From an uncultured Roseburia sp. (GTDB taxonomy: Bacteria > Bacillota > Clostridia > Lachnospirales > Lachnospiraceae), in NCBI GenBank assembly GCA_947567625.1, contig CANONN010000034.1, positions 1 to 37,040 on the forward strand: a DNA stretch of 37,040 nucleotides, in the 5' to 3' direction. This document shows positions 80-23,696 of this stretch, in pieces; the stretch's first letter is position 1; the number at the start of each line of letters is the position of its first letter. The notes under the pieces were generated by a model. That model made no database searches. It was not told the origin of the DNA and worked only from the letters and a program-made list of their open reading frames with translations. A program made the translations under genes and the position numbers.

Positions 80-225
80 GTAACAGTCCAGCTCAGGACT
101 TTGCACTCGCTGCAAAGTCCGTAAGAACGCGTATATCTAGCCAAGCGGGAATCCGGCTCTTTGTCGAAGACAAACTTTAAATGAGACGGATTCCGTAACT
201 ATGAAGCCGTAGGCGGAATAGTTAC
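80..225 (+). mobile_element. 146-bp MITE, copy next to the spoIVA stop codon
   Basis: Non-coding 146-bp element starting GTAAC and ending GTTAC, flanked on both sides by CTGCTATA (72-79 and 226-233), read as an 8-bp target-site duplication or the junction of a tandem unit. The right-hand 8-mer contains the spoIVA stop codon (229-231). Three hairpins are visible: a 10-bp stem GGACTTTGCA/TGCAAAGTCC with a 5-nt loop; a long GGAATCCGGCTC-type stem enclosing TTTGTC-GAA-GACAAA; and a terminal GTAACTAT/ATAGTTAC stem. GTAA ends and 8-bp duplications are what I recall of the IS66 family, so mobilisation by an IS66-type transposase is inferred. No transposase is encoded here. Confidence 0.85.
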
Positions 226-228
226 CTG

Positions 229-1713
229 CTATATGATAATACAAACCATGCCGCCGTTGCTGTCATTGACAATTTTCTGCATCGTGTCCTGCAGCTTCAT
301 CTGGCACTCATCATCCATCATGGAGATTTTATTGCGAATCCCGTCCTCCATCAGCTCCCCGATGGATTTTCCAAAGATATTGGTCTCCCACGCGCCGGCG
401 TCACTCTGCTGCCCCTCTTTGATGTAGGCGATCAGATCGTTGGCCTGCTCCTCACTTCCCACAATCGGCGCAATTTCCGTCTCGATATTGGCCTTTATCA
501 TATGGATGGAAGGAGAAATCGCTTTCATCTTTACCCCAAACTTGTTGCCGTGTTTGATTAAGACAGGGTCCTCCATCTGAATATCTTTCAAACTGGGATT
601 TACCACGCCGTACCCTTTTTGCTGTACCGCGGCAAAAGCGTCCGCCACTTTCTCATAGGATTCTTTTAGCTCCGCCATCTCCTTTACCATGGAAATCAGC
701 TCATATTCGCCCTGAATCGGTACGCCGGCGAGCTCGCTCATATTTTCATAGTAGAACTGCTCTGCGATATCCATCAGCACTTTCACGCAGCCGCTCGCCA
801 GATCAATCTCATCGATCTTGACCTTCGAGAGAAACTGTTCCGGCACATATTCCTTGACGCCGGCGTCCTTTGCCTTCTTCATGTTTGCGAGAATATCGCC
901 CGCGGTCTTAATGATTTCCGCCTTGATCGGATGTGACGCGTCCAGCATTTCCGCCCATTTGGGAATATAGTATTCCACCCGCACAATGGGAAATTCATAC
1001 AGAACCTGCTCTAAGATCTGATAAATGTCTTCGCGCCGCAGCTGTTCGCAGTTGACCGGAACCACCGGCGTGCGATACTTCTCTTTCATCTCCCCGACCA
1101 GCTTCATCGTCTCCTCGCCGTAGGGCCTTACTGAATTAAGAACAATCACAAACGGTTTGCCGATGGAGGATAATTCGGCGATCGTGCGCTCCTCCGCCTC
1201 TATGTAGCTGCCGCGGTCCAATTCCCCGATACTGCCGTCCGTGGTAATCACGATGCCCAGGGTCGCGTGGTCTTTGATTACTTTTTCGGTCCCGATCGAC
1301 GCCGCCTCGGTAAACGGAATCTCCGCGTCAAACCAGGGCGTTTTCACCATCCGCTGTTTTCCCTCTTCCATATGGCCGTTGGCGCCGTCCACCATAAATC
1401 CCACACAGTCGATGAGGCGGACCTTAATTTTACTGCCGTCCTCTAACGCAATCTCCGCCGCGTCCTTGGGAATAAACTTCGGCTCGGTCGTCATGATCGT
1501 TTTCCCCTGTGCGGACTGGGGCATCTCGTCGATTGTGCGCTCCCTGCTATGTACATCTTCCATAAAAGGAATCACCATCAAATCCATAAAGCGCTTGATA
1601 AACGTTGATTTACCGGTGCGCACCGGCCCCACGATGCCAAGGTAAAACTCACCGCCTGTGCGGCCTGACAGATCTTTGTATAAATCAAACTCTTTTTTTG
1701 TATTTACCACCAT
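229..1713 (-). CDS. spoIVA: Stage IV sporulation protein A, spore coat morphogenetic ATPase
   Basis: 494 aa, the usual full length for SpoIVA. In the family, this cytoskeletal ATPase is made in the mother cell, polymerises on the forespore surface and forms the base layer on which the spore coat assembles. The N-terminus has the diagnostic P-loop GPVRTGKSTFIKRF at about residues 29-42, followed by the conserved DEMPQSAQGKTIMTTEPKF segment and a DCVGFMVDGA motif, as in TRAFAC-like GTPase-fold ATPases. The C-terminus GGMVCIII is the typical hydrophobic tail. The ATG at 1713 has AAGGGG 8 nt upstream. A sigma-E-like promoter lies about 25 nt further up, matching mother-cell expression. The gene stands alone and ends 3 bp from a MITE end. 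It is strong evidence that the host forms endospores. Confidence 0.97.
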   Translation of the reverse strand: MVVNTKKEFDLYKDLSGRTGGEFYLGIVGPVRTGKSTFIKRFMDLMVIPFMEDVHSRERTIDEMPQSAQGKTIMTTEPKFIPKDAAEIALEDGSKIKVRLIDCVGFMVDGANGHMEEGKQRMVKTPWFDAEIPFTEAASIGTEKVIKDHATLGIVITTDGSIGELDRGSYIEAEERTIAELSSIGKPFVIVLNSVRPYGEETMKLVGEMKEKYRTPVVPVNCEQLRREDIYQILEQVLYEFPIVRVEYYIPKWAEMLDASHPIKAEIIKTAGDILANMKKAKDAGVKEYVPEQFLSKVKIDEIDLASGCVKVLMDIAEQFYYENMSELAGVPIQGEYELISMVKEMAELKESYEKVADAFAAVQQKGYGVVNPSLKDIQMEDPVLIKHGNKFGVKMKAISPSIHMIKANIETEIAPIVGSEEQANDLIAYIKEGQQSDAGAWETNIFGKSIGELMEDGIRNKISMMDDECQMKLQDTMQKIVNDSNGGMVCIII

Positions 1714-1739
1714 AAAATAACCCCTTTCCTACTTAATTC

Positions 1740-1769
1740 ATAGTATGAGAGGGGTTATGATTTTATGAC
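1740..1769 (-). promoter_or_regulatory. Predicted sigma-E promoter of spoIVA
   Basis: On the minus strand GTCATAAA (1762-1769), a 14-bp spacer and CATACTAT (1740-1747) closely resemble the mother-cell sigma-E consensus (about kmATATT-N14-CATACAnT). The expected start site is about 20 nt before the spoIVA ATG, leaving a short leader that holds the AAGGGG ribosome binding site. The fit with the known regulation of spoIVA supports the call; it is unproven experimentally. Confidence 0.7.
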
Positions 1770-1832
1770 CGTTCCATCGCAATTATTTTGCTGTGCGTCT
1801 TATATTTTCGTCCCAGAAGCGGTCGGGCCGCC

Positions 1833-3395
1833 TTATGCTTTCTTCTTTGGCCTGCCATCCTTTTTCAATCCATCGGCTTTGTTTTTCTTTGTCTGCTCCT
1901 GTTTTTCGGCCAGTTCTATGGGCAGACGATTGCTCATTTTGGTATAGCGGTGTATCTTGTGCGCCAGCTTGCCCGTAAAATCCTCTGCAAGCGCGCGCCA
2001 TTCCCAGTTGCCGCCCAGCGTAGACGGCGTATTCATGCGCCCCTCGTCGCCAAGGCCCAGGATGTCCTGCATCGGCATGATCGCCAGGTTTGCGACAGAA
2101 TTCCACGCCGTGCGCATCACACCCCAGTGAATCCCTTCTTTTTTGCTCAAGTTCATATATGCTTTCGCGTATTTGCGCGTCTTACCGTCAGTGCCCTGAT
2201 ACCAGCTAAGCACCGTCTCATTGTCGTGCGTCCCAGTATAGACCACACAGTTTTTGTCGTAATTGTGCGGCAGGTAGGCATTATCCGGCGTATCGCCAAA
2301 GGCAAACTGCAATATCTTCATCCCCGGATAACCGGTCTGTTTTACAAGCTCCACGACAGACGGCGTCAAAAAGCCCAGGTCTTCGACGATGATATTGGGT
2401 CTGCCGATCGCCTCCTCAATGGCGTGAAAGAGCTCTATGCCCGGCCCCTTGCGCCATTCGCCGTTTCTGGCGGTCTCATCCTTACCGGGAATCGCATAGT
2501 AAGAGTCAAAACCGCGGAAATGATCGATGCGCACCACGTCATAAAGCTGGCATACCGCCCCAATGCGCTTAATCCACCAGCTATAGCCGTCCCTTTTCAT
2601 GACGTCCCAGCGAAACAGCGGATTGCCCCAGAGCTGGCCGTCCACAGAAAAAACATCCGGCGGGCAGCCCGCGACGTCGATCGGGTTAAGCTCCTTGTCG
2701 AGATAAAACTGCTTTGGATTGGCCCAGACATCGGCGCTGTCTCCCGCCACATAGATCGGCACATCGCCGATGATCTCGATGCCCAGGTCGTTGACATACG
2801 CCTTGAGACGCCGCCACTGCCTGTAAAACAGATACTGCAGCATCTGATAAAAGCAAATATCCTCTGCATATTCGGCTCTCGCCTTATCGAGCGCCCTCTT
2901 TTTTCGCGTCTTTAGCTCCGGCTCCCACAAAAACCAGGAATCCCCGCCGTGAGCGTCCTTTAGCGCCATAAACAGCGCATAGTCATCGAGCCACTCCGCC
3001 TCTTTTTCGCAGAACTCCGAAAAATCAGACGGCGTATGCTTGCGAAAACGCGCGTATGCTTTTTTTAGCAGAGGATAGCGCGACTCATACATCACGCCGT
3101 AATCCACATAACGCGGGTTCGTGCCCCACGGATAGCTCTCACACTCTTTCTTCGTCAGAAGCTTTTCCTCGCAGAGTGTCTCAAGATCAATAAAGTAGGG
3201 ATTGCCCGCGAAACTGGAAAACGATTGATAGGGGGAATCCCCATAGCTCGTCGGGCATACCGGCAGAATCTGCCAATACTTCTGCCCTGCCTTTTTCAGA
3301 AAATCCGCAAACTTTCTCGCCTCTTTCCCCATTGTGCCAATCCCGTAAGGTGACGGCAATGATGAGATATGCATTAAAACGCCGCTGCTACGCAT
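1833..3395 (-). CDS. malQ: 4-alpha-glucanotransferase (amylomaltase, GH77)
   Basis: 520 aa from the chosen start. Transfers alpha-1,4-glucan segments between maltodextrins, releasing glucose, in cytoplasmic maltodextrin and glycogen metabolism. GH77 landmarks in order: SGVLMHISSLPSPYGIG at the N-terminus, GDSPYQSFSSFAGNPYFIDL, DVPIYVAGDSADVWANP, the nucleophile region VVRIDHFRGFDSYYA, the acid/base region IIVEDLG, and YTGTHDNET. The open frame extends to 3440, but the ATG at 3395 (MRSSGVLMH) begins where homologues begin and has GGAGG 9 nt upstream. The last ~30 residues are Lys/Gln-rich and low complexity, probably a dispensable tail. It is monocistronic with its own promoter (3482-3510), and no adjacent maltose transporter is present. 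Confidence 0.95.
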   Translation of the reverse strand: MRSSGVLMHISSLPSPYGIGTMGKEARKFADFLKKAGQKYWQILPVCPTSYGDSPYQSFSSFAGNPYFIDLETLCEEKLLTKKECESYPWGTNPRYVDYGVMYESRYPLLKKAYARFRKHTPSDFSEFCEKEAEWLDDYALFMALKDAHGGDSWFLWEPELKTRKKRALDKARAEYAEDICFYQMLQYLFYRQWRRLKAYVNDLGIEIIGDVPIYVAGDSADVWANPKQFYLDKELNPIDVAGCPPDVFSVDGQLWGNPLFRWDVMKRDGYSWWIKRIGAVCQLYDVVRIDHFRGFDSYYAIPGKDETARNGEWRKGPGIELFHAIEEAIGRPNIIVEDLGFLTPSVVELVKQTGYPGMKILQFAFGDTPDNAYLPHNYDKNCVVYTGTHDNETVLSWYQGTDGKTRKYAKAYMNLSKKEGIHWGVMRTAWNSVANLAIMPMQDILGLGDEGRMNTPSTLGGNWEWRALAEDFTGKLAHKIHRYTKMSNRLPIELAEKQEQTKKNKADGLKKDGRPKKKA

Positions 3396-3481
3396 AGAAT
3401 TGTTCCTCCCAAAATTTTTGGTTTTGTCGCAACTTGCCACGATGTACTGCTTTTATTTAGAATATACACAACTTTTCGTTT

Positions 3482-3510
3482 ATTTTACCAGTATTTTTCT
3501 ATTTGTGCAA
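3482..3510 (-). promoter_or_regulatory. Predicted sigma-A promoter of malQ
   Basis: Minus-strand TTGCAC (3505-3510), 17-bp spacer, TAAAAT (3482-3487), with TGG before the -10 giving an extended -10. It lies about 90 bp before the malQ start, in the 145-bp divergent gap shared with the plus-strand ClC gene. No convincing promoter was picked for the ClC side. Confidence 0.6.
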
Positions 3511-3540
3511 GAATAGTATACGAAAGAGTTGTAAATTTCT

Positions 3541-4824
3541 GTGACGCGTGGTAATATTTTTTATATGAGAGATATCACAAAACATAAAATCAAACATAAT
3601 TTAAAGCGCGCCGAGACTTCATTGAAATGGGTTGTTTTTGCTATTTTGTCCGGTATTGTCGTCGGGCTGGCAGGCACTTTTTTCTCGTTTGGCATGTCCG
3701 TGGTCACGCTGATGCGCCTGAAGAATCCATGGCTGTTGTTTTTGCTGCCTTTCGGCGGATTGATCATAGTCGGAAGCTACCGATTGCTGCACGATGAAAA
3801 AGACACGGGAACCAATCTGGTGCTCTCGGCCATCCATTCCGGCAATGAGCTGCCGCTTCGGATGGCACCTCTAATTTTCCTTTCCACGCTCGTCACGCAC
3901 CTGTTCGGCGGTTCCGCCGGCCGTGAGGGCGCCGCCCTGCAGCTGGGCGGCAGCATCGGAAACGGGCTCGGTTCGCTGTTTCGCTTTGACGAGAAGGACA
4001 AGCACATTATGATTATGTGCGGCATGAGCGCGGCTTTTTCCGCGCTGTTTGGCACGCCCATGGCCGCCGCGATCTTTTCGATGGAAGTCGTGAGCGTAGG
4101 CATCATGCACTACGCCGCTTTGGTCCCGTGCGTCGTCTCCTCCCTGATTGCCAACGCCGTCGCCATGTCCTTCGGCGTCACCAAGGAGACCTTTTATCTA
4201 CAACACATCCCGGCTTTTACCGTCGGTTCCGCCGTGCAGGTTACCCTGCTTGCCGTCCTCTGTGCCTTGGTGAGTATTCTGTTTTGTATCCTGCTGCATC
4301 AGTCCGAACAGCTGTACAAAAAGTTCTTTCAAAACCCCTATGTCAGAGTGTTCGTCGGCGGATGTATTTTGATCGTCCTCACTCTGTTGGTGGGAAACCA
4401 GGACTACAACGGCACCGGCATGAATATCATAGAACAGTGCATGGAGGGCTCGGTGCGCCCGGAAGCCTTTTTCCTGAAAATGATTTTCACGGCGGTCACG
4501 CTCGGCGCAGGATTTAAGGGCGGTGAGATCGTCCCCTCGTTTTTTACCGGCGCAGCGTTCGGCTGTCTGTTTGGCAGCCTGACGGGCTTTTCCCCGACAC
4601 TCTGTTCCGCCGTCGGCATGACCGCACTCTTCTGCGGCGTCACCAACTGCCCGATTACCTCGCTGCTGATCAGTTTCGAGCTGTTCGGCTACGACGGGAT
4701 GCCCTATTTTTTGCTTGCCATCGCTTTCAGTTATATGCTGTCGGGCTATTACGGTCTCTATCACAGCCAGAAAATTATCTACTCCAAGTATAAAACCAAT
4801 TATATCAATAAAAAAACGCAGTGA
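3541..4824 (+). CDS. ClC-family anion channel/antiporter, possibly fluoride type
   Basis: 427 aa integral membrane protein of the ClC superfamily, the only plus-strand protein gene here. ClC motifs: SGREGAALQLG at about residues 125-135 with the gating glutamate, TPMAAAIFSMEV, and GAGFKGGEIVPSFFTGAAFG at about 320-340. About ten hydrophobic helices are visible. The family moves Cl- or F-, often in exchange for H+. The KDTGTNLVLSAIH segment in place of GSGIP and the FKGGE loop resemble, from memory, the CLC-F fluoride/proton antiporters more than chloride ClCs. No fluoride riboswitch was recognised upstream, so the ion is uncertain. The start is either GTG 3541 or ATG 3565; neither has a strong ribosome binding site. 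The gene ends at a terminator shared with the convergent operon. Confidence 0.85.
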   Translation: MTRGNIFYMRDITKHKIKHNLKRAETSLKWVVFAILSGIVVGLAGTFFSFGMSVVTLMRLKNPWLLFLLPFGGLIIVGSYRLLHDEKDTGTNLVLSAIHSGNELPLRMAPLIFLSTLVTHLFGGSAGREGAALQLGGSIGNGLGSLFRFDEKDKHIMIMCGMSAAFSALFGTPMAAAIFSMEVVSVGIMHYAALVPCVVSSLIANAVAMSFGVTKETFYLQHIPAFTVGSAVQVTLLAVLCALVSILFCILLHQSEQLYKKFFQNPYVRVFVGGCILIVLTLLVGNQDYNGTGMNIIEQCMEGSVRPEAFFLKMIFTAVTLGAGFKGGEIVPSFFTGAAFGCLFGSLTGFSPTLCSAVGMTALFCGVTNCPITSLLISFELFGYDGMPYFLLAIAFSYMLSGYYGLYHSQKIIYSKYKTNYINKKTQ

Positions 4825-4843
4825 AAGCGGAGCCGGACCGAAG

Positions 4844-4876
4844 AAAAACCGTCACCCTAACCGGATGACGGTTTTT
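4844..4876. terminator. Bidirectional intrinsic terminator between ClC gene and DUF1284/bioY operon
   Basis: AAAAACCGTCA ... TGACGGTTTTT hairpin with A-run on one side and T-run on the other, so it can terminate both convergent transcripts. It overlaps the last codons and the stop codon of the DUF1284 gene (stop at 4857-4859). Confidence 0.85.
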
Positions 4877-5297
4877 CCTGATTTACGCAGCGCGAGAGCT
4901 GTGCCAGCAAATCATCATAATTGCAAAGCCCCTGGGCCCGCCAGTCACATTTGCCGCAGAATTCCATAAAAACCTCGTGATTCATATGCTCCAGAGCGTG
5001 ACGGCAGAGCTCGCGGTAAGAGTATTGTTCCTTTTCTTTCAGATCAAAACGCTCCATCACCCTTCTGTCCTTTCCCACCACCTGATTGGCGTTGTGGGAA
5101 CAGGTTCCCTGAGACGTCTGATTCGGACAGTTCGCACAGATCATATCCGGTTCTGCCACGAGCACAAGGCGTCGGTCGGGCTCTTTCCGCAGTGCGGTCA
5201 CAATGCGGGTCATGTTCTCGCAAAAAGCACCGCTGTAACCTTTTCCCTCATAGAGCGAGGTACAGATAATATGGTGCGCCCGAAATTCATTTTCCAT
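4857..5297 (-). CDS. DUF1284-type cysteine-rich protein
   Basis: 146 aa. The N-terminal FRAHHIICTSLYEGKGYSGAFCENM pattern and spaced cysteines (CANCPNQ, GTCSHN, FCGKCDW, GLCNYD) match small DUF1284 proteins, which are predicted to bind a metal or Fe-S cluster. The function is not known. It follows bioY by 9 bp with a GAGG-type ribosome binding site, so the two are very likely co-transcribed from the BirA-type promoter. Biotin synthase is an Fe-S enzyme, but no biotin biosynthesis gene is present here, so a biotin link is only suggested by position. The final residues are encoded within the shared terminator. Confidence 0.8.
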   Translation of the reverse strand: MENEFRAHHIICTSLYEGKGYSGAFCENMTRIVTALRKEPDRRLVLVAEPDMICANCPNQTSQGTCSHNANQVVGKDRRVMERFDLKEKEQYSYRELCRHALEHMNHEVFMEFCGKCDWRAQGLCNYDDLLAQLSRCVNQEKPSSG

Positions 5298-5306
5298 GCC
5301 GATACC

Positions 5307-5888
5307 TCACCTTTCCGTCATCTTACCGGCCCTGACGCTTCCCGTGCGCTCCTCCGTCAGTATGCGCGCGGCGGACAGAGCCTTACGCACCGGCAGGGCA
5401 ACCAGAAAAGCGCCCACTACGGAAAGCACATCTTTGAGGATATAGGGAACGGAAACCGCCACAAAAGATACCGGGATGGAAGACGACGACACCATGCTAA
5501 ACTGAATCACGCCCAGTAAATGGCAGATTGCCAGTCCCGACAATCCAAGCAGCAGCCGAACGGCAATGTTTTTGCACAGCATGCCGACACCGCAGAGCGC
5601 CGAGAGAAATAAAAATCCCCACAGAAATCCGCCGCTGTAGCTCGCCAGCCACGAGGGGCCTCCCGTCATACCCGCAAATACCGGAACGCCCACGGTTCCG
5701 AGCAGAAGATAGATGACCGTGGAGCATAACCCCCGCTTCCAGCCAAGCACACACCCGCAGAGCGCTACGGCAAACGTTTGCAGCGTCACCGGCACCCCGG
5801 TAGGCATGGGGATGGTCAATATGGACAGCACACTCAATACCGCGGTAAACATTCCCACCATCACAATTGTTTTCGTTGAAATCTTCAT
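5307..5888 (-). CDS. bioY: Biotin transporter BioY, substrate-binding (S) component of ECF transporter
   Basis: 193 aa, six predicted membrane helices. BioY binds biotin and works with the shared ECF energy module (EcfA, EcfA', EcfT), which is not encoded here. Family features: an N-terminal VMVGMFTAVLSVLSILTIPMP helix followed by GVPVTLQTFAVALCGCVLG, YLLLGTVGVPVFAGMTGGPSWL, and a distal helix with PYILKDV. The ATG at 5888 has AAGGA 8 nt upstream. The promoter and biotin-repressor operator lie about 300 bp upstream, separated from the gene by tandem structured repeats, an unusually long leader. First gene of a two-gene operon with the DUF1284 gene. Confidence 0.95.
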   Translation of the reverse strand: MKISTKTIVMVGMFTAVLSVLSILTIPMPTGVPVTLQTFAVALCGCVLGWKRGLCSTVIYLLLGTVGVPVFAGMTGGPSWLASYSGGFLWGFLFLSALCGVGMLCKNIAVRLLLGLSGLAICHLLGVIQFSMVSSSSIPVSFVAVSVPYILKDVLSVVGAFLVALPVRKALSAARILTEERTGSVRAGKMTER

Positions 5889-5920
5889 CGTTTTCTTCCT
5901 TTCTTCTCTGTAAACATCAA

Positions 5921-6152
5921 ATCGAGTAAATAAGAATCACTTCGTGATTCTTTTGATGCATATGACGACGCAATTTCCTATAAATCGAGTAGGGAAGAGC
6001 CAGCTTCCCCTATTCGCCACGCGGGGTGCGTGCAGCAATGCTGCTAATTTTCTTACGCACCCCTGTGCAATCGAGTAGGAAAGATTTCCCCCCTACTCGC
6101 CACGCGGGGTGCGTGCAGCAATGCTGCTAATTTTCTTACGCACCCCTGTGCA
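5921..6152. repeat. ATCGAGTA-headed tandem structured repeats in the bioY leader
   Basis: Three successive units begin with ATCGAGTA at 5921, 5984 and 6070. The second (86 bp) and third (83 bp) are near-identical over their last ~55 bases and contain a 9-bp stem GGGGTGCGT/ACGCACCCC enclosing an inner GCAGC-AAT-GCTGC hairpin. Their heads form CGAGTAGG...CCTA(C/T)TCG hairpins whose arms vary in compensated fashion. The first unit instead carries AAGAATCAC-TTC-GTGATTCTT. All lie between the bioY promoter and start codon, so they would be transcribed as a folded 5' leader. No open frame is convincing. This accounts for most of the 375-bp gap 5889-6263. Confidence 0.85.
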
Positions 6153-6154
6153 TA

Positions 6155-6182
6155 AAGAAAAGGCCGCCTTTCGGCACGACCT
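6155..6182 (-). terminator. Candidate terminator hairpin after trpD, overlapping bioY transcription start
   Basis: On the minus strand a hairpin closed by a GCC-GAAA-GGC tetraloop is followed by TTTTCTTT. It may end the trp operon about 80 bp after trpD. Because the predicted bioY start site falls inside it, it could also shape the 5' end of the bioY transcript. The stem is imperfect. Confidence 0.45.
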
Positions 6183-6183
6183 T

Positions 6184-6236: not shown

Positions 6237-6263
6237 TCAGAGACCCGTTCTCTTCCAAATCTT

Positions 6264-7277
6264 TTATCTGTTGGAGGCAGCGACCAATTCATCCAATTTT
6301 CTGATCGCATTTCCGCTGTCAATCGTCTCGGCCGCAAGGCTGATGCCCTCCTCGATCGAAGCGGCGATACCGCCGCAGTAAAGTGTAGCGCCCGCGTTGA
6401 GCAGAACAATATCCCGCTTTGCCCCCGTCATTTTCCCGGACAAGATCTCTTTGGCAATCCGGGCGTTCTCTACCCCGTCGCCGCCGAGCAGTTCGTTCGT
6501 CCCGCAGGCGGTCAGTCCAAATTGCTCCGGCGTTATGGTGTAAGTGGTAACTTCCCCCTCTTTGATCTCGGAGACGACGGTGGGACCGCCGAGCGTGATC
6601 TCATCCATATTATCCCGCTCGCCGCTGACAACCAGCGCTTTCTCTACGCCCAGACGGCTCATGGCGCGGGCGATATTTTCCGTGAGCGCCGGGCTGTACA
6701 CGCCGACCACCATATTCTTTGCCCGGGACGGATTCGCCAGAGGCCCTAAAATATTAAACACCGTGCGAATCCCCAGCTCATTTCGCACTTTCCCCACATT
6801 CTTCATCGACTGGTTAAACAGAGGGGCAAACATAAAACCGATGCCGATCTCTTCCACGCATTTTTGCACGTCGGCAGGCTTTGCCATGATATTGACGCCA
6901 AGCGCCTCGAGAACGTCCCCCGCACCGGATTTCGAGGAGATCGAGCGGTTTCCGTGTTTTGCCACCGGAAGTCCCGCCGCCGCCACCACGAAAGCGGAGG
7001 TTGTGGAAACGTTAAAGGTAAACGTCCCGTCGCCGCCGGTGCCGACCAAATCAATGTAATTGTCCACTTGCGGGGAGATGGTAGCCGCCTTATCCCGCAG
7101 TACGGAGGCAAACCCCACCAATTCATCTAATGTCTCTCCCTTCATGCGCTCGGTAGTGAGAAATCCGGCGATCTGCGCCGGCGTCGCCTCACCGCTTAGC
7201 ATAATATCCATCGCGCGGCGCGCCTCCTCCTGTGTCAAATCTTTCTTCTCAGCAATTTTTCCGATCAGATCTTTCAT
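6264..7277 (-). CDS. trpD: Anthranilate phosphoribosyltransferase
   Basis: 337 aa. Joins anthranilate to PRPP, the second step of tryptophan synthesis. Class signatures: GTGGDGTFTFNVSTTSAFV at about residues 77-95 (PRPP binding), KHGNRSISSKSGAGDVLEALG at about 104-124, GPLANPS and GERDNMDEITL. Two ATGs (7280 and 7277) follow AGGAG; the second has the better 7-nt spacing and is used. The gene is the last of the trp cluster, separated from trpA by a MITE with clear target duplications. Clostridial operons usually have trpD between trpG and trpC. No separate promoter is evident, so it probably depends on read-through across the MITE. Confidence 0.96.
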   Translation of the reverse strand: MKDLIGKIAEKKDLTQEEARRAMDIMLSGEATPAQIAGFLTTERMKGETLDELVGFASVLRDKAATISPQVDNYIDLVGTGGDGTFTFNVSTTSAFVVAAAGLPVAKHGNRSISSKSGAGDVLEALGVNIMAKPADVQKCVEEIGIGFMFAPLFNQSMKNVGKVRNELGIRTVFNILGPLANPSRAKNMVVGVYSPALTENIARAMSRLGVEKALVVSGERDNMDEITLGGPTVVSEIKEGEVTTYTITPEQFGLTACGTNELLGGDGVENARIAKEILSGKMTGAKRDIVLLNAGATLYCGGIAASIEEGISLAAETIDSGNAIRKLDELVAASNR

Positions 7278-7331
7278 CATGCAGCTCCTTTCTTCCCTGT
7301 CCATGTCAATTGGCTGTTATTGTGTTTAAAA

Positions 7332-7477
7332 GTAACCGTTCAGCTCAGGACTTTGCACTCGCTGCAAAGTCCGTAAGAACGCGTATATCTAGCCAAGCGG
7401 GAATCCGGATCTTTGTCGAAGACAAACTTTAAATGAGCCGGATTCCGTAACTATGAAGCCGAAGGCTGAATCGTTAC
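7332..7477 (+). mobile_element. 146-bp MITE between trpA and trpD, with 8-bp target duplication
   Basis: Complete 146-bp copy flanked by GTTTAAAA at 7324-7331 and 7478-7485, an exact 8-bp target-site duplication. Inverted ends are clearest here: left GTAACCGTTCAGC against right (reverse complement) GTAACGATTCAGC, 11 of 13 matching. The internal hairpins are as in the other copies. The right end lies 11 bp from the trpA stop codon. Transcripts from the trp promoter must cross three hairpins to reach trpD. GTAA termini and 8-bp duplications suggest an IS66-family parent element. Confidence 0.92.
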
Positions 7478-7488
7478 GTTTAAAATTG

Positions 7489-8289
7489 TCAGAGTGACGA
7501 TTGGTTGAGCGCCCTCTTAAACTCCCGGCAATAATCTTCGGCTATTTGCGGCGCAAAGTCGTTCTCGTCGAGCAGTCTGATCAAATGGCTTCCGACAATG
7601 GCGCCGTCGATCAAATTTTGAAGCGGTTTTACATCCGCCGCGGTGCGTATTCCAAATCCCATCATAACCGGAAGCTCGGTGGCGTCTTTTACCGTTCTCA
7701 AATACGGCTCCACCTCTTTGTGAAAATCTGCGCTCTGCCCTGTCACCCCCATGGAGGACACGCAGTATACGAACCCTCTCGCCTGTTCTAACAGCATTGG
7801 AATCCTCTCACCCGAAACCGGGGAAACCAGAGGAATTAAGATCGTTTGCTCCGTCACATCTAAAAATTGGCGAATCTCCTCCTGCTCCTCATAGGGCAGA
7901 TCGGGTATAATCAGTCCATCCACGCCCGCCTCGCCGCATCGCTTTACAAACGCTTCCACGCCGTAGTGGAGCACGGTGTTATAGTACAGCATAAATACGA
8001 TCGGCAGGGAAAGCCCCTCCGCGCGCGCCTCCTCCAACATGGAAAAAATACCTTTCACCGTGGCTCCATTGCTGATCGCGCGATAGGACGCCTCCTGTAT
8101 CACAGGCCCATCCGCAATCGGGTCCGAAAACGGAATCCCCAGCTCCACCACATCCGCGCCGCCTCTCTCCTGCGCCAGCAACAGTTCTTTGGTCGCCGCC
8201 AGATCGGGCAGTCCGGCTGTGATATAGGTAATAAACGCTTTTTCTTTTTTCTCTCTCAATTGTTTCATTCTCTCTTCGATACGATTCAT
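7489..8289 (-). CDS. trpA: Tryptophan synthase alpha subunit
   Basis: 266 aa TIM barrel. Cleaves indole-3-glycerol phosphate to indole and glyceraldehyde 3-phosphate; the indole is channelled to TrpB. Catalytic Glu in VVELGIPFSDPIADGPVIQ at about residues 47-65, catalytic Asp in GLIIPDLPYEEQ, and phosphate-binding loops near GVTGQ, GFGIRT and GAIVGSHL. Start ATG 8289 lies 27 bp after the trpB stop. The C-terminus is normal, so the MITE insertion just past the stop codon left the protein intact. Confidence 0.97.
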   Translation of the reverse strand: MNRIEERMKQLREKKEKAFITYITAGLPDLAATKELLLAQERGGADVVELGIPFSDPIADGPVIQEASYRAISNGATVKGIFSMLEEARAEGLSLPIVFMLYYNTVLHYGVEAFVKRCGEAGVDGLIIPDLPYEEQEEIRQFLDVTEQTILIPLVSPVSGERIPMLLEQARGFVYCVSSMGVTGQSADFHKEVEPYLRTVKDATELPVMMGFGIRTAADVKPLQNLIDGAIVGSHLIRLLDENDFAPQIAEDYCREFKRALNQSSL

Positions 8290-8316
8290 AGCACGCTTCC
8301 TCCTTCTCTCCTCCCG

Positions 8317-9528: not shown

Positions 9529-9546
9529 TTTTACCTCCATATTTCT

Positions 9547-15444: not shown

Positions 15445-15513
15445 TGGAACTTCTTTTTATTTACCCCTGTTTTAAGGCAATATTTCCCTGTCATCCCATG
15501 CACGGTCAAAAGG

Positions 15514-17823: not shown

Positions 17824-17886
17824 AGTCGTTTCAAAATCCTTTCGTCTGTACATTATGCATATCCGCCCGCAGTGCGGCGGCACACG

Positions 17887-18318
17887 TTATAATTTCTCGA
17901 GTTCCTCCTGGCCGATCTGGCTGATGCCGTTTGTCGAGAGCAGCTCCACCGCCCGTTTGTTGTCCTCCACACGGAAAATCATATTTGCCGTCCCCTGTAT
18001 GCGTGTGGTAAAAGCATACATATATTCGACATTGATGCCATTTTTGCCCAACAGGTCCAGAACCTTAAATAAGCCACCCGGTTCATCCGGGAGCCGCACC
18101 GCCAGGACGTCTTTTATTGACGAAACATAGTTTGCTTCCCGAAGCACCGTCGACGTATTGTAGATATCGTCCACAATCAGACGCGCAATACCAAAATCAA
18201 CAGCATCCGCCAGATAAAGCGCGCGCAGATTGATCTTGTGCTGGGATAAAAGATCGGTCAATTCCGCCAGTTTCCCCGGCTTGTTCTCCACAAATACCGA
18301 AATCTGTTTTACTGCCAT
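17887..18318 (-). CDS. Tandem ACT-domain regulatory protein
   Basis: 143 aa, two ACT domains: ISVFVENKPGKLAELTDLL (residues 6-24) and VRLPDEPGGLFKVLDLLGKNGINVEYMY (about 74-101). ACT domains bind amino acids; stand-alone double-ACT proteins of this kind often sit beside iorA and paaK. Likely a sensor of aromatic amino acids or their keto acids that modulates the neighbouring enzymes; the target is not known. AGGAGG 7 nt before ATG 18318 makes the start secure. It follows a 103-bp tandem repeat separating it from paaK. Confidence 0.9.
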   Translation of the reverse strand: MAVKQISVFVENKPGKLAELTDLLSQHKINLRALYLADAVDFGIARLIVDDIYNTSTVLREANYVSSIKDVLAVRLPDEPGGLFKVLDLLGKNGINVEYMYAFTTRIQGTANMIFRVEDNKRAVELLSTNGISQIGQEELEKL

Positions 18319-18337
18319 ACTCTTACCTCCTATTTAA

Positions 18338-18554
18338 AGTTCCGTATCCGCTCTTCCAACGCCCTTTTGGCAGAACAAATCCTGTCTCTCCCATTCGACA
18401 CAATCTGTTCTGGGCGTTTTCTGAGCCGATACTGTTTTTTAGTTCCGTATCCGCTCTTCCAACCCCTTTTTGCAGAATAAATCCTGTCTCTCCCGTTCGG
18501 CACAATTTGTTCTGGGCGTTTTCTGAGCCGATACTGTTTTTTAGTTCCGTATCC
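18338..18554. repeat. Tandem repeat of about 103 bp between paaK and the ACT gene
   Basis: Two units beginning AGTTCCGTATCCGCTCTTCC (18338 and 18441; 103 and 102 bp), followed by the first 12 bases of a third (18543-18554). The units differ at about ten positions, mostly in the arms of a CAGAACAAAT...ATTTGTTCTG-type stem, which stays largely paired. On the minus (coding) strand they form hairpins within the operon's mRNA. A 60-codon open frame crosses them but has no supported function. Units show no spacer/repeat alternation, so this is not CRISPR. Confidence 0.85.
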
Positions 18555-18562
18555 CCCAGCCT

Positions 18563-19873
18563 CTATTTTTGCTGGTAGAGGTTACGTTTATCTATGATGC
18601 GCACCGCCTTGCCCTCACTTCTGGTAATCGACTTGGGCGCGACAAGCTTCACTTTTGCGTAGATTCCGAGCATCGCCTTTAAGGCATTGACGAGCTCACG
18701 CTCTTTCGCGGAAACCTCGCTCAAGTTGTCGGAGAACATCTCGGCCGTCATCTCCACCTGAACCTCAATCGTGTCGCTGTTGTTGACACGGTCCACAATA
18801 ATCTGATAGTTAGCCGGGTATCCCTTATTCATCAATACGGTCTCGATCTGGGACGGGAATACATTGACGCCCTTGACGATCAGCATATCATCGCTTCTGC
18901 CCAGCGGCTTCGTCATTTTTACATGCGTCCTGCCGCAGGAACATTTCTCCCTGCTCAAGATACAGATATCGCGCGTGCGGTAGCGAATCAGCGGGAACGC
19001 CTCCTTGGTGATGCAGGTAAATACCAGCTCCCCTTTCTCGCCGTCCGGCACGGGTTCGCCGGTGTTCGGATTGATCACCTCCGCGATGAAATGGTCTTCG
19101 TTGACATGCATACCGGTCTGCGCCGAACACTCAAAGGAAACACCCGGCCCGGAGATCTCCGTCAGCCCGTAGATATCATATGCTTTGATGCCAAGCTTTT
19201 CCTCGATATCGTGGCGCATCTCCTCCGTCCAAGCCTCCGCACCAAAGATGCCGGCTTTTAACTTGATACTGTCCCCTAAGCCTCTCTCCTGAATACTCTC
19301 TGCCAGATATGCCGCGTAGGACGGCGTACAGCAGAGTATCGTCGAACCCAGATCGGTCATAAACTGAATCTGGCGCTCCGTGTTGCCCGACGACATCGGA
19401 AGCGTCAGACACCCGACTTTGTGGGAACCTCCGTTTAGACCGGGGCCTCCGGTAAACAAGCCGTAGCCGTAGCAGACATGACAGACGTCGTCCTTCGTTC
19501 CTCCGGCCGCGACGATCGCCCGCGCACAGCAGTCTTCCCAGAGATCAAGATCATGCTGCGTATAAAAGGCGACCACACGCCTCCCGGTCGTCCCGCTCGT
19601 CGACTGAATACGCACACAATCGGCAAGCGGCCTTGCCAATAGCCCGTACGGATAACAGTTCTTCAGATCGTCTTTTGTGACAAACGGCAGCTTGTGAAGA
19701 TCATCGACAGACTTGATATCCTCCGGCGTGATACCGGCTTCCATCATTTTTTGCTTATAAAAAGGCACATTTTCCCAAACATTCTGTACCTGCTTGACGA
19801 GCCTCTCACTCTGCCACTGATGAATCTGCTCCCTGGACGCGGTCTCAATTTCCTCCTGATAGTATCGTTCCAT
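18563..19873 (-). CDS. paaK: Phenylacetate-CoA ligase family enzyme
   Basis: 436 aa adenylate-forming enzyme. Motifs: P-loop QSTSGTTGRRVVAFYT at about residues 88-103, YGYGLFTGG, YDIYGLTEISGPGVSFEC, RTRDICIL and the C-terminal lysine region SEGKAVRIIDKR. A Cys-rich CSCGRTH segment is typical of the PaaK family. In anaerobes next to ior genes it probably runs toward free aryl acetate, forming ATP from aryl-acetyl-CoA by substrate-level phosphorylation, or activates aryl acetates for the reverse reaction; direction cannot be read from sequence. Start ATG 19873 has GAGGTGG 6 nt upstream. First gene of the paaK-ACT-ior operon. Confidence 0.93.
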   Translation of the reverse strand: MERYYQEEIETASREQIHQWQSERLVKQVQNVWENVPFYKQKMMEAGITPEDIKSVDDLHKLPFVTKDDLKNCYPYGLLARPLADCVRIQSTSGTTGRRVVAFYTQHDLDLWEDCCARAIVAAGGTKDDVCHVCYGYGLFTGGPGLNGGSHKVGCLTLPMSSGNTERQIQFMTDLGSTILCCTPSYAAYLAESIQERGLGDSIKLKAGIFGAEAWTEEMRHDIEEKLGIKAYDIYGLTEISGPGVSFECSAQTGMHVNEDHFIAEVINPNTGEPVPDGEKGELVFTCITKEAFPLIRYRTRDICILSREKCSCGRTHVKMTKPLGRSDDMLIVKGVNVFPSQIETVLMNKGYPANYQIIVDRVNNSDTIEVQVEMTAEMFSDNLSEVSAKERELVNALKAMLGIYAKVKLVAPKSITRSEGKAVRIIDKRNLYQQK

Positions 19874-19909
19874 GTAATTCCACCTCGCTATGTAATTGAT
19901 AAAATACCG

Positions 19910-19935
19910 GCGGCCGCTCCTCGTCCGACGGCCGC
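19910..19935. other. GC-rich hairpin in the paaK leader
   Basis: GCGGCCGC ... CGGCCGC inverted arms with an ~11-nt loop, located between the predicted promoter and the paaK start. There is no T-run, so it is not an obvious terminator. It may stabilise the 5' end of the operon mRNA. Confidence 0.5.
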
Positions 19936-19953
19936 GAATATTTTGCTACTATT

Positions 19954-19982
19954 ACTATACCAGTTCCACGGCAAAATGGAAA
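19954..19982 (-). promoter_or_regulatory. Candidate promoter of the paaK-ACT-ior operon
   Basis: Minus-strand TTTCCA (19977-19982), 17-bp spacer, TATAGT (19954-19959) preceded by TGG (extended -10). The -35 is weak. Located 81 bp before paaK, just past the MATE gene stop. Confidence 0.5.
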
Positions 19983-20005
19983 CAAGAATTTTTTACATGC
20001 TCTTT

Positions 20006-21397
20006 CTAAATGTCCTCCACAATATTGTGAATCCAGACGCCTTTTTTCAGCAGGATAAGTCCCAATACCCCTTTTAAAATCTCCGCGCTCTGACAGATGA
20101 TATAGACCTCTGTCACCGGCAGAGACGTAAACCGGCTGAGCACAAAGGCGATCGGTATATTGATCACCCAGATATAACAGCTGTCAAACAAAAAGGTGAT
20201 CATCGTTTTTCCTCCGGTGCGCAGTGTAAAATAGGAGGCGTGGTAAAACGCATAGACCGGCATAAATACAGAGGAGACGCGGATTAAATAAGTGGCGGTA
20301 CGCCGCACCTCTTCTGTTGTATTGTAAATTTCCGGAAACAGCGGCGCCAGCACGCAAAGCAGCGCGCCGATAAAGATGCAGCTTGCGACCGAAAAAAAGA
20401 TCATTTTGCGGTCGGTCTCCACCGCGCGCTCCATCTCCCCGGCTCCGAGCTGCTGCCCCACTACAATTGAGATCGCGCTGCCGAGCGCGATAAACACAAT
20501 GTTAAAGAGATTGGAGACCGTCGTGGAAATATTTAACGCCGCCACAACGCTTAACCCGCGCAGCGAATAACACTGCACCATCACCGCCTGCCCGGCAGAC
20601 CAAAGCGTCTCGTTGGCCAAAAGCGGCATTCCCTTTTTGATAATCTCCCATACCAGCTTCCTTGGTATCCGCAGACTGCGATATGCGCCCTCGATAAACA
20701 GATAGCGCTTCCGGTGCGTATGCGTCCAGACTGCCACGATCGCCGTCTCACAGAATCTTGAGATCACGGTCGCAATAGCAGCTCCGTAAACGCCGAGCGC
20801 GGGAAAGCCGAATTTTCCGAAAATAAGCAAATAATTAAAAAACAGATTGACAAACACCGCCACAACACCCGAAATCATGGGCACGATCGTCTCCCCGACT
20901 TCGCGCAGGGTACTCGTATAAATCTGCGTCACCATATAGGGAATCACCCCAAGCATCATAATCCAAAGATATCCCATGCCCGCCTCGTGTGTGGCGGCGA
21001 TATTCCCCTGTCCGTTGTCGTGCAAAAACAGATCGATCAGCGAGCCGCCCGCCACGGCAAAAATAATCAGCCACAAAACCGCGAGGAGCCCGCAGGATAT
21101 CCATTTAAAGCGAAACGTATTGCGCACGCCCTCGTGGTTTCCCTGTCCGTAAAACTGGGCGCTGAAAATAGAGGCGCCCGATATTGCCCCGAAGATACAG
21201 ATATAAAAAATGTTGAGCAGCTGGTTTACGATCGCCACCCCGGACATCTGTTCTGTCCCCAGCTGCCCTACCATAATATTGTCGAGCAGACTCACAAAAT
21301 TTGTGATACCGTTTTGTATTAAGATCGGCAGCGCAATCACCAGTATCATATGATAAAATGCCCGATCTCCTATATACCTCTCCTTAAAACGCCTCAT
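20006..21397 (-). CDS. MATE-family multidrug/metabolite efflux protein
   Basis: 463 aa with twelve predicted membrane helices, the size of NorM/DinF-type MATE exporters. Starts with a basic cytosolic stretch, then PILIQNGITNFVSLLDNIMVGQLGTEQMSGVAIVNQL, the classical first-lobe signature; the second lobe begins near LLANETLWSAGQAVMVQCYS, and the internal repeat is visible. It exports cationic or other compounds using Na+ or H+; the substrate is not predictable. ATG 21397 follows AGAGG. It sits alone, with the terminator of the GGGtGRT operon upstream and the paaK promoter downstream. Confidence 0.93.
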   Translation of the reverse strand: MRRFKERYIGDRAFYHMILVIALPILIQNGITNFVSLLDNIMVGQLGTEQMSGVAIVNQLLNIFYICIFGAISGASIFSAQFYGQGNHEGVRNTFRFKWISCGLLAVLWLIIFAVAGGSLIDLFLHDNGQGNIAATHEAGMGYLWIMMLGVIPYMVTQIYTSTLREVGETIVPMISGVVAVFVNLFFNYLLIFGKFGFPALGVYGAAIATVISRFCETAIVAVWTHTHRKRYLFIEGAYRSLRIPRKLVWEIIKKGMPLLANETLWSAGQAVMVQCYSLRGLSVVAALNISTTVSNLFNIVFIALGSAISIVVGQQLGAGEMERAVETDRKMIFFSVASCIFIGALLCVLAPLFPEIYNTTEEVRRTATYLIRVSSVFMPVYAFYHASYFTLRTGGKTMITFLFDSCYIWVINIPIAFVLSRFTSLPVTEVYIICQSAEILKGVLGLILLKKGVWIHNIVEDI

Positions 21398-21513
21398 CCT
21401 ATACCTCTTTGAATTCTCACATTATGCATCACCATAATACGGACGGGTACGATCACCGTTGCCATATTGGTTGCTTTTATCTCATTTTATAAGCGGCCTT
21501 TGGCGCCACCACA

Positions 21514-21577
21514 CAAAAAAGCGGGCAGAACCCAGAACAAATCAAGGAAAAATCCTTTTTTGTCTGCTCCACCCGCC
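21514..21577 (-). terminator. Terminator downstream of the GGGtGRT gene
   Basis: Minus-strand hairpin GCGGG(TGG)AGCAGACAAA ... TTTGTTCTG(GGTT)CTGCCCGC followed by six Ts, starting about 85 bp after the GGGtGRT stop at 21662. It closes the two-gene operon. The rest of the 21398-21661 gap shows only a weak upstream region for the MATE gene. Confidence 0.75.
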
Positions 21578-21661
21578 TTACCATATAGCATTGATCAGAT
21601 ACTTTATCGAAAACACATTTTATGTATTGACTATAAACATATCATGACATGATCTTTTTGC

Positions 21662-22672
21662 TTAGCATTTCCCTGCCTTGTGTGCCTCCTCGATCGACAC
21701 TGCCACCGCAACGGTAGCGCCGACCATCGGGTTGTTGCCCATGCCGATTAAGCCCATCATCTCAACGTGAGCCGGCACGGAGGAGGAACCTGCAAACTGT
21801 GCGTCAGAGTGCATACGTCCGAGCGTGTCGGTCATGCCGTAAGAAGCCGGTCCTGCCGCCATATTGTCGGGATGTAAGGTACGTCCCGTACCGCCGCCCG
21901 ATGCCACGGAGAAGTATTTTTTGCCCTGCTCCACACACTCTTTTTTGTATGTACCTGCAACCGGATGCTGGAAACGTGTCGGGTTGGTGGAGTTACCGGT
22001 GATGGAGACACCGACGTTCTCCATGTGCATGATCGCAACGCCTTCCTGCACGTCGTCTGCGCCGTAGCATTTTACCGTAGCGCGAAGTCCTTTGGAATAT
22101 GCCTTTTCATATACGACATTTACTTTTGCCTCCTGGTAGTCATACTTTGTCTCCACAAAAGTAAATCCGTTGATGCGGGAGATGATCTGTGCAGCGTCCT
22201 TGCCAAGGCCGTTTAAGATCACGCGCAATGGTTTCTGACGCACTTTGTTCGCTTTCTCCGCAATACCGATCGCACCCTCCGCAGCCGCGAAAGACTCATG
22301 GCCTGCCAAAAAGCAGAAGCACTCGGTCTCCTCCTCGAGAAGCATCTTGCCGAGATTGCCGTGTCCAAGTCCCACTTTTCTGTGGTCTGCCACAGAACCC
22401 GGAATACAGAAAGCCTGGAGACCCTCTCCGATTGCGGCCGCTGCATCGGCAGCTCTCAGGGCGCCTTTTTTGATGGCGATCGCAGCGCCTACCGTATATG
22501 CCCAGCAGGCATTTTCAAAACAGATCGGCTGGATTTTTTTCACCTGCTCATACACGTCAAGTCCAGCATCTTTCGTGATCTTCTCAGCCTCTTCGATTGA
22601 GCTGATTCCATAGCTGTTTAACACAGCGTTAATCTGGTCAATTCTTCTTTCATATGATTCAAATAAAGCCAT
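21662..22672 (-). CDS. GGGtGRT family protein (function unknown)
   Basis: 336 aa. The segment SGGGTGRTLHPDNMAAG at about residues 255-271 is the motif that names the GGGtGRT family. The protein is soluble and glycine-rich, with NGLGKDAAQII, GNSTNPTRFQHPVAGTYKKEC and a C-terminal GMGNNPMVGATVAVAV. Several cysteines (about residues 51, 56, 89, 116, 118, 199) could bind metal but form no classic cluster motif. It follows the NifU-like gene by 23 bp with AAAGGAG upstream of ATG 22672. The two genes travel as a pair in anaerobes as far as I recall. No enzymatic role is assigned; a cofactor or Fe-S-related task is suggested only by the partner. Confidence 0.9.
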   Translation of the reverse strand: MALFESYERRIDQINAVLNSYGISSIEEAEKITKDAGLDVYEQVKKIQPICFENACWAYTVGAAIAIKKGALRAADAAAAIGEGLQAFCIPGSVADHRKVGLGHGNLGKMLLEEETECFCFLAGHESFAAAEGAIGIAEKANKVRQKPLRVILNGLGKDAAQIISRINGFTFVETKYDYQEAKVNVVYEKAYSKGLRATVKCYGADDVQEGVAIMHMENVGVSITGNSTNPTRFQHPVAGTYKKECVEQGKKYFSVASGGGTGRTLHPDNMAAGPASYGMTDTLGRMHSDAQFAGSSSVPAHVEMMGLIGMGNNPMVGATVAVAVSIEEAHKAGKC

Positions 22673-22695
22673 TGTCGTTCGTCTCCTTTCCTATC

Positions 22696-23388
22696 CTACT
22701 CTGCTCTCGGGTCGATAATCTTAGCGGCGTCATCAACACGTCCGTACTGGCCCTTTGCCTTCTCCCACGCCGTGTTCGGATCATCGCCTTTTTTGATGAA
22801 ATCTGTCATTTTCCCAAGAGAAACGAACTGATATCCGATAACTTCATCATCCTCGTCCAACGCTATTCCGGTGACATAGCCCTCTGCCATCTCCAGATAG
22901 CGAACGCCTTTTTCTTTGGTTGCGTACATGGTGCCAACCTGAGAACGAAGTCCTTTGCCCAAATCCTCGAGACCGGCGCCGATGGCAAGTCCGTCGTCGG
23001 AAAATGCGCTCTGTGTGCGGCCGTAGACGATCTGTAAAAATAATTCTCTCATCGCGGTATTGATCGCGTCGCATACCAGATCCGTATTCAACGCCTCGAG
23101 AATCGTCTTGCCCTGCAGAATCTCCGCCGCCATAGCCGCGGAATGGGTCATGCCGGAACATCCGATTGTCTCGACCAACGCTTCCTCAATAATACCGTTC
23201 TTTACGTTCAGCGAAAGCTTACATGCACCCTGCTGCGGCGCACACCAGCCCACACCGTGTGTAAAACCAGAAATGTCTTCAATTTTTTTGGAATGTACCC
23301 ATTTTCCTTCTTCCGGAATCGGAGCCGGCTCATGTTTCGCGCCCTTTGCCACCGGGCACATGTTTTCAACTTCCTTCGTGTAAATCAT
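22696..23388 (-). CDS. NifU-like iron-sulfur scaffold-type protein paired with GGGtGRT
   Basis: 230 aa. The central part resembles the IscU/NifU N-terminal fold: WCAPQQGACKLSLNV, then VETIGCSGMTHSAAMAAEIL (compare the GCGxxxASS element of IscU), then DLVCDAINTAMRELF. Thus Cys residues occur at the positions where IscU ligates a nascent cluster, although the spacing is not canonical. An N-terminal extension with MCPVAKGA and a C-terminal extension (GYVTGIALDEDDEVIGYQFVSLG ... GDDPNTAWEKAKGQYGR) are not part of IscU. No IscS/NifS gene is nearby. First gene of the pair; ATG 23388 has AAAGGAG 7 nt upstream. A promoter could not be fixed with confidence in 23389-23524. Confidence 0.8.
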   Translation of the reverse strand: MIYTKEVENMCPVAKGAKHEPAPIPEEGKWVHSKKIEDISGFTHGVGWCAPQQGACKLSLNVKNGIIEEALVETIGCSGMTHSAAMAAEILQGKTILEALNTDLVCDAINTAMRELFLQIVYGRTQSAFSDDGLAIGAGLEDLGKGLRSQVGTMYATKEKGVRYLEMAEGYVTGIALDEDDEVIGYQFVSLGKMTDFIKKGDDPNTAWEKAKGQYGRVDDAAKIIDPRAE

Positions 23389-23524
23389 TATAAGACTCCT
23401 TTCATTTAAAAAATGTTCATGTCAAAATTGCTTTAACATCGTACATTAGAGCACGCTCTGGTTATGATTGTCTCATATTTTTACAAATTTCACAAGTAGT
23501 TCCACAAAAAATTTCTAAATGTTA

Positions 23525-23550
23525 GTAACGATTCAGCCTTCGGTTTCTTA
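23525..23550 (-). repeat. Inverted remnant of the MITE end beside the third copy
   Basis: 23525-23547 matches, at 22 of 23 positions, the reverse complement of the right end of the 7332-7477 copy (GTAACGATTCAGCCTTCGG...). With the adjoining GTAAC of the complete copy it forms a 31-nt hairpin mirroring the element's terminal hairpin. It is either debris of a second, oppositely oriented insertion or the outer end of a longer ancestral element. The remaining gap 23389-23524 is AT-rich with only weak promoter-like hexamers. Confidence 0.65.
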
Positions 23551-23696
23551 GTAACAGTTTAGCTCAGGACTTTGCACTCGCTGCAAAGTCCGTAAGAACG
23601 CGTATATCTAGCCAAGCGGGAATCCGGCTCTTTGTCGAAGACAAACTTTAAATGAGCCGGATTCCGTAACTATGAAGCCGAAGGCGGAATAGTTAC
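23551..23696 (+). mobile_element. 146-bp MITE overlapping the stop codon of the beta-helix transferase gene
   Basis: Third complete copy, nearly identical to 80-225 and 7332-7477, with GTAAC and GTTAC ends and the same three hairpins. No 8-bp duplication: left flank GTTTCTTA, right flank GGCCGCTT. The terminal GTTAC supplies the TAA stop (23693-23695) of the minus-strand transferase gene, so the insertion or a later rearrangement redefined that protein's C-terminus. Confidence 0.9.

Follow-up and report, generated by a model that had tools for sequence, protein, structure and literature searches.

A 146-bp MITE family in a Roseburia-group bacterium, very probably moved in trans by an IS66-type transposase

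Introduction

Among the closest described systems is ISDge4 of Deinococcus geothermalis, an IS66 element of the ISBst12 group with ends GTGACTACTCAGCA/GTAACTGCTCAGCA, one gene, an 8-bp repeat and reported activity (PMC12898284). For classical IS66 and the passenger-bearing tIS66, the published ends of ISPa75 and ISPsy43, GTAAGCGTCC... and GTAACCGTCCGGGCA, start with GTAA or GTAAC, and the same source describes a 161-bp miniature inverted-repeat transposable element (MITE) that lies within an IS66-related region but has a 4-bp repeat (PMC12888890). An IS66-derived MITE was not found in the searched literature by title, start of abstract or passages, and the available portions of PMC12888890, PMC3189936, PMC9769881, PMC6053426, PMC12898284 and PMC8024623 mention none.

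The stretch of DNA analysed here (the window; 37,040 nucleotides) is one whole contig (C34) of a draft genome of an uncultured Roseburia sp. (3.42 Mb, 110 contigs, 93% complete). A preliminary description had noted three 146-bp repeats in it and proposed that they are IS66-derived, given that IS66 elements start with GTAA and make 8-bp duplications; both traits agree with the published ends and with the 8-bp repeat of the ISBst12 group.

Results

Element copies in the window

The window was found to contain the following features:

1–71, plus strand: 3′ part of a fourth 146-bp copy (element positions 76–146), cut by the contig start
72–79: 8-bp spacer CTGCTATA, common to the cut copy and copy 1
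80–225, plus strand: copy 1, complete, 146 bp
226–233: target duplication CTGCTATA, containing the stop codon of spoIVA (229–1713, minus strand)
7324–7331: left target duplication GTTTAAAA
7332–7477, plus strand: copy 2, complete, 146 bp, between trpA (7489–8289, minus strand) and trpD (6264–7304, minus strand)
7348–7372, plus strand: hairpin 1 of copy 2, 10-bp stem
7400–7446, plus strand: hairpin 2 of copy 2, GGAATCCGG / CCGGATTCC plus an inner stem; absent from the consensus fold
7447–7477, plus strand: terminal palindrome of copy 2 (31 bp, hairpin 3), related to the IS66 tip; absent from the minimum-energy fold
7478–7485: right target duplication GTTTAAAA
23525–23555, minus strand: inverted 31-bp terminal palindrome, a remnant, whose last five bases (GTAAC) are the start of copy 3
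23551–23696, plus strand: copy 3, complete, 146 bp, without target duplication

The repeats were confirmed as described: the three complete copies are nearly identical, are 146 bp each, run from GTAAC to GTTAC and carry no gene. The description of their inverted ends as imperfect and up to 13 bp long was fair, since the first 13 bases and the inverted last 13 agree at 9, 11 and 9 positions. Exact 8-bp repeats flank two copies, as had been stated (CTGCTATA at 72–79/226–233 and GTTTAAAA at 7324–7331/7478–7485), and copy 3 has none, which may be because its start lies within the inverted 31-bp terminal palindrome. The end of copy 3 supplies the TAA stop of an ORF at 23693–24406 (minus strand). 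Two features had been overlooked: the fourth copy at bases 1–71, chained to copy 1 through the common CTGCTATA, and the inverted palindrome at 23525–23555.

Copy number, families and target duplications

When the genome and its relatives were searched with the element, it proved to be multicopy in its own genome, with matches in genomes of the same genus. A 25-bp core was matched at 84 places of the own genome (≤3 mismatches; 65 exact) against 0 for the reversed pattern, and exact GTAACNGTTCAGC occurred 75 times against 0 in the control, which excludes chance. The 146-bp query gave at least 47 matches there, after scoring of 40 out of the 146 candidates from the first look. A second, related family of 143 bp (family B; the first is family A) gave 53 matches in the own genome, cross-matches to family A counted. 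With copy 2 as query, 7 of 60 other genomes had a match, all seven in the same genus. No DNA similar to the element was found on plasmids, and the A/B core pattern was not found in viral contigs.

The fetched stretches comprised 238,937 bases with 149 element matches, in which one deleted copy can count twice. Among 59 complete copies in them with readable flanks, the 8-bp duplication was exact in 35 and had one mismatch in 17, two in 1 and three or more in 6; when flanks from different copies were paired as a control (n=3422), 2 were exact and 9 had at most one mismatch. Thus the possibility that copies lack duplications throughout did not hold, as most complete copies have them. The six with three or more mismatches include copy 3 of the window and two chain members (C66, C97) that are one base out of register. 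The duplication was exact in 26/39 copies of the more uniform family A and 7/17 of the more diverged family B, as expected if B is the older family. Inverted ends reach 14/14 in several family B copies (for example C1:95020–95162). Exact duplications have 34% G+C, compared to 38% in the 60-bp flanks and 48% in all fetched stretches, so the AT-richness is mostly that of the neighbourhood.

An empty site in relatives

The target site between trpA and trpD was found to be empty in nine other species of the genus, as an insertion there predicts. Joined flanks of this site had some match in 34 of 63 searched genomes (own included) and gave an unbroken alignment to nine other genomes (G032, G008, G035, G075, G064, G019, G026, G020 and G030); on re-alignment six of these were in one piece across the junction and three in two pieces. 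The filled window was split against all nine, with a gap of 19–111 bases in the relative and 225–277 in the window, and the relatives' gaps therefore leave no room for a 146-bp element. This between-species comparison covers one site, and the relatives are other species of the genus rather than sister strains. Within the own genome, a nested copy (C10:39498–39643) interrupts the tip of another MITE and is flanked by the duplication ACAGTTTA.

IS66 elements with matching ends

Elements of 1.82–1.84 kb that encode an IS66-type transposase were found in relatives, and their ends are identical or nearly identical to those of the MITE (GTAACAGTTCAGCC). The element of R. inulinivorans, the one that was read gene by gene, is 1829 bp long, bounded by GTAACNGTTCAGCC ends, and holds one 485-aa ORF (ORFs ≥100 aa counted). 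Its product matches PF03050 with 69.1 bits (cut-off 23.1) and NCBIfam NF033517 with 132.9 bits, under the cut-off of 180. An identical transposase is present in Roseburia inulinivorans DSM 16841, together with a cut copy on another contig. Exact GTAACNGTTCAGCC ends occurred in 17 of 41 genomes of the genus, with G026 accounting for 273 occurrences; a single occurrence of the reversed pattern was seen in all of them. A transposase protein match was obtained in 12 of 63 genus genomes, mostly at 26–37% identity. In the own draft genome (93% complete) no IS66 transposase was found by the PF03050 profile (0) or by protein search (0).

The scan of named genomes gave 19 IS66 loci, nine of which had both ends and flanks readable (L206–L210, L213, L217, L222 and L223). 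Five of the nine carry an exact 8-bp duplication, four full-length (L207–L210) and one of 936 bp (L222); L206, L213, L217 and L223 are without an exact duplication of their own. The L207–L210 proteins are 69–71% identical to the R. inulinivorans transposase. The ends of these IS66 elements begin with GTAA and vary somewhat, being GTAACTATTCAGCC at both ends of L209 and GTAACAGTTCACCC at one end of L210.

In the best own-genome cases the MITE tip equals an IS66 tip over 17 bp (family B to L208, L210 and L222; A2 to L209); copy 2 of the window matches the L209 tip at 16 of 17 positions, and one G029 element has a tip identical to an IS66 tip over 19 bp. Homology is confined to the tips, over about 14–30 bp. 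We also considered the IS66 body as the source of the MITE body, and rejected it: among the matches listed none beyond the tips was better than chance (best inner E 0.038). The proposed IS66 origin thus held for the ends and the 8-bp duplication, which match those of relatives' IS66 elements, but not for the body, which is not IS66 sequence in the matches listed. Likewise, matching IS66 ends are present in relatives, but the own draft genome yielded no transposase to go with them. Taken together, the IS66 reading of the 146-bp family is supported by these sequence comparisons.

A composite, chains and deleted forms

In R. inulinivorans an IS66 element and a 163-bp MITE bound one 5.9-kb unit (L158, 4082–9953), which reads IS66, an Rrf2-type regulator, an acyl-CoA dehydrogenase/ETF/rubredoxin fusion, a flavodiiron-type protein and the MITE. 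The sequence atttgcat at the left flank of the IS66 element recurs past the far end of the MITE, and the IS66 within the composite has no duplication of its own. This common duplication is a strong indirect indication that an IS66 transposase moves MITE ends. L210 has an additional MITE-like end, which comes after the IS at the duplication of the IS.

Neighbouring copies less than 16 bp apart formed 25 pairs, of which 12 were spaced by 6–10 bp (one single deleted copy left out; C35 is ambiguous). Mixed chains, in which A or A2 is joined to B across a common spacer, were found at C66, C80:5532–5824 and C97, and weaker cases with decayed spacers at C18 and C27. Half elements of 64–68 bp that are without hairpins 2 and 3 and have exact duplications were present at C1, C3, C4 and C37. 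One-ended transposition was a first impression for these, and was set aside as deletion fits better; in these elements hairpins 2 and 3, which abut, would have been lost precisely.

Solo 31-bp tips

In a survey with two patterns (≤2 and ≤1 mismatches), the 31-bp tip was found with both its flanks in 100 distinct contexts. Seven of the tips stood alone within exact 8-bp duplications, in four species and two genera; since the loci had been chosen for carrying the tip or the ends, such counts are not rates:

C73:10826–10856, own genome: solo tip L072, exact duplication
G032: solo tips L269, L287, L289 and L290, exact duplications
G062: solo tip L279, exact duplication
G360, another genus of the family: solo tip L334, exact duplication

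Four more have one mismatch in the duplication (L261 in the own genome, L288 in G032, L323 and L327 in G360) and L275 (G032) has two; the other 88 contexts have three or more and are mostly tips of longer or cut copies. A further solo tip of the own genome, at C19, is offset by one base. Of 392 genomes of the order, 3 (own included) contain a similar tip pattern with one mismatch.

Hairpins and fold

Copy 2 folds as RNA with −51.7 kcal/mol (z −4.8 against shuffles). In its minimum-energy fold hairpins 1 and 2 form, and the two ends pair together in place of hairpin 3; this end-to-end pairing competes with hairpin 3 in single-sequence folds, and hairpin 3 is missing from many minimum-energy folds. 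We aligned nineteen elements from eleven genomes, picked for diversity. Their consensus fold has hairpins 1 and 3, not 2, with 21 pairs, 8 of them changed on both sides. Pairs of hairpin 2 were added from the own copy to give 30 pairs in total, and 91.7% of cells pair, with hairpin 2 lowest (83.1%). Both-side changes were seen at 15 pairs in 57 cells, compared to a shuffled mean of 17.6 cells (0/500 as high) and 4–10 cells in slid controls, and because the elements are related the shuffles overstate this significance. Further pair types are a weaker measure, with 34/500 shuffles as high.

Among own copies, variation is slightly lower in stems (family A 80/3326 versus 94/2908 in the rest; family B 109/1662 versus 158/1448). 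Wobble changes numbered 13 G–T versus 11 A–C in family A and 15 versus 34 in family B (ten of the 34 at one pair), and therefore indicate no clear transcript strand. By crude ORF calls, 58 of 61 copies judged were intergenic (8 more at edges left out), with no simple bias in orientation to genes; two of the 58 lie between convergent genes. No Rfam family reached its gathering score on the elements (window plus 12 loci; one tRNA was hit in each search).

Of the three hairpins in the earlier proposal of a folded RNA, 1 and 2 are in the minimum-energy fold of copy 2, and hairpin 3 is not. The stems are conserved by paired change between species, which fits RNA and DNA hairpins alike.

Discussion

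The repeats very probably form a non-autonomous MITE family, hosted by a Roseburia-group bacterium, which depends for its movement on a single-gene, ISBst12-type IS66 transposase acting in trans. The family is short, non-coding and multicopy, with inverted ends, target duplications and an empty site; an autonomous partner in the own genome is the one usual MITE trait that was not found. Also speaking against this reading, the transposase protein was matched in 12 of 63 genus genomes whereas 17 of 41 have exact ends, four of the nine readable IS66 loci have no exact duplication of their own, and six of the 59 complete MITE copies show three or more mismatches. The transposase would bind the 14-bp ends (GTAACAGTTCAGCC) and join them to a target whose strands are cut 8 bases apart. 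Insertion beside the end of a resident copy would give chains of elements with one common duplication between them. In the own species the transposase may have been lost, or it may lie in the unassembled part of the genome. The three-hairpin body probably does not come from IS66, and its paired changes raise a second question, whether its stems are kept by selection on the fold or by copying of one arm from the other.

REP and BIME repeats are short palindromes in intergenic DNA that also occur in series, and REP elements are not known to make an 8-bp target duplication. The present elements might accordingly be seen as REP-type or other structured repeats, functional as RNA or DNA hairpins and spread by a non-IS66 agent such as a REP-associated tyrosine transposase: they are palindromic, of many copies, mostly intergenic (as counted above), and have stems with paired changes between species. 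Unlike REP/BIME repeats, however, the window family has exact 8-bp duplications and IS66 ends. The exact duplications largely refute such a reading, and the trpA–trpD empty site, the IS66-like ends and the IS66–MITE composite also speak against it, which leaves it very improbable. Slippage or unequal crossing-over would account for chains of like with like (window 1–233, C59 and the A–A step at C66), but doubling of one element cannot yield the mixed chains at C66, C80:5532–5824 and C97, where the repeats are moreover shifted by 0–2 bases. We therefore judge it an unlikely source of the shared spacers, and the clear mixed chains point to insertion beside a resident end.

The solo 31-bp tips allow two readings, which we regard as rivals of equal standing. 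Tentatively, the terminal palindrome, in which a 3-bp loop joins two 14-bp ends, may be a mobile unit itself; its mobility would then give a reason for the near-palindromic tip of the parent IS. To our knowledge such a unit, if mobile, would be among the smallest moved by any DDE transposase. There is about an even chance, on the other hand, that full-length copies were deleted in place, from the GTAAC at position 1 to that at 116 (113 in family B). The two motifs form a direct repeat of 5 bp or more, and a deletion between them would not affect the target duplication; the solo units of the own genome and of G062 resemble the tips of local long copies, and other recurrent deletions are known here (89-bp and 64–68-bp forms). 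Against deletion, though not decisively, solo units occupy 6 of the 10 31-mer places in G032 (duplications four exact, one with one mismatch and one with two), and the G360 tip L327, with one mismatch in its duplication, is a full palindrome that does not resemble the remaining G360 tips observed.

Because gut bacteria have the autonomous partner alongside gene-less derivatives, solo tips and insertions that are nested or chained, direct tests become feasible of trans-mobilisation, of how ends are recognised and of how small a transposon can be. Across species the MITEs preserve a hairpin architecture in spite of sequence change.

Compared to known systems, the ends here (GTAACAGTTCAGCC) resemble the GTAACTGCTCAGCA/GTGACTACTCAGCA ends of ISDge4 and the ISBst12 group, as do the 8-bp repeat and the single gene of the R. 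inulinivorans element (PMC12898284). Unlike ISBst12-group IS, the window elements are gene-less and have the tips alone in common with them. Classical IS66 has three genes (TnpA, TnpB and the DDE transposase), whereas the R. inulinivorans element has one transposase gene between its ends. The R. inulinivorans composite resembles tIS66 in the capture of a passenger gene (PMC12888890). MITEPsy1 and MITEAba12 are, in the passages available, similarly short, non-coding and multicopy with inverted ends, and differ in that their parents are other or unknown elements and neither is IS66-derived; the present family shares their form, and its ends and 8-bp duplication resemble those of relatives' IS66 elements.

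Partial copies and half elements

When partial MITE copies were examined in the draft genome of the uncultured Roseburia sp., we found that 32 of the 74 lay at the edge of the sequence stretch analysed, and in the cases inspected (the starts of contigs C59, C82 and C7, and the end of C49) this edge was the contig end. The assembly seems to have been broken by the MITEs, so that copy counts in this genome are lower bounds.

The same genome contained half elements of 64–68 bp that lacked hairpins 2 and 3, the second and third stem-loops of the MITE body, and stopped where hairpin 2 would begin or close to that point. Each of the following was flanked by an exact 8-bp duplication:

C1:13355-13422 (locus L098), half element
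C4:57633-57699 (locus L107), half element
C37:10724-10787, half element
C3:86458-86522, half element

In the window, the end of MITE copy 3 (23551-23696) contributed the TAA stop of an ORF on the minus strand (23693-24406), whose product is a sugar-nucleotide acyltransferase-like protein. Two close direct repeats were found outside the MITE copies:

6007-6152, 63 bp, 98% identity
18362-18554, 91 bp, 95% identity

Related elements in other genomes

The 2.4-Mb genome of another member of the genus (G026; for example loci L169, L170 and L302-L304) carried 273 exact GTAACNGTTCAGCC ends, which belonged to a different hairpin MITE type; 85-bp and 164-bp units with exact duplications were observed. 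By-eye inspection revealed a second MITE type, found in several species, whose members share a motif like GCCCGATTATGAGCAAA between hairpins:

L171, L172 and L304
L158, 9791-9953
L210, 4009-4149

In Roseburia inulinivorans (G034), an IS66 element and a 163-bp MITE formed a 5872-bp composite (L158, 4082-9953), with a Rrf2 regulator, an acyl-CoA dehydrogenase/ETF/rubredoxin fusion and a flavodiiron-type protein as its cargo. A single 8-bp duplication was common to the IS66 element and the MITE.
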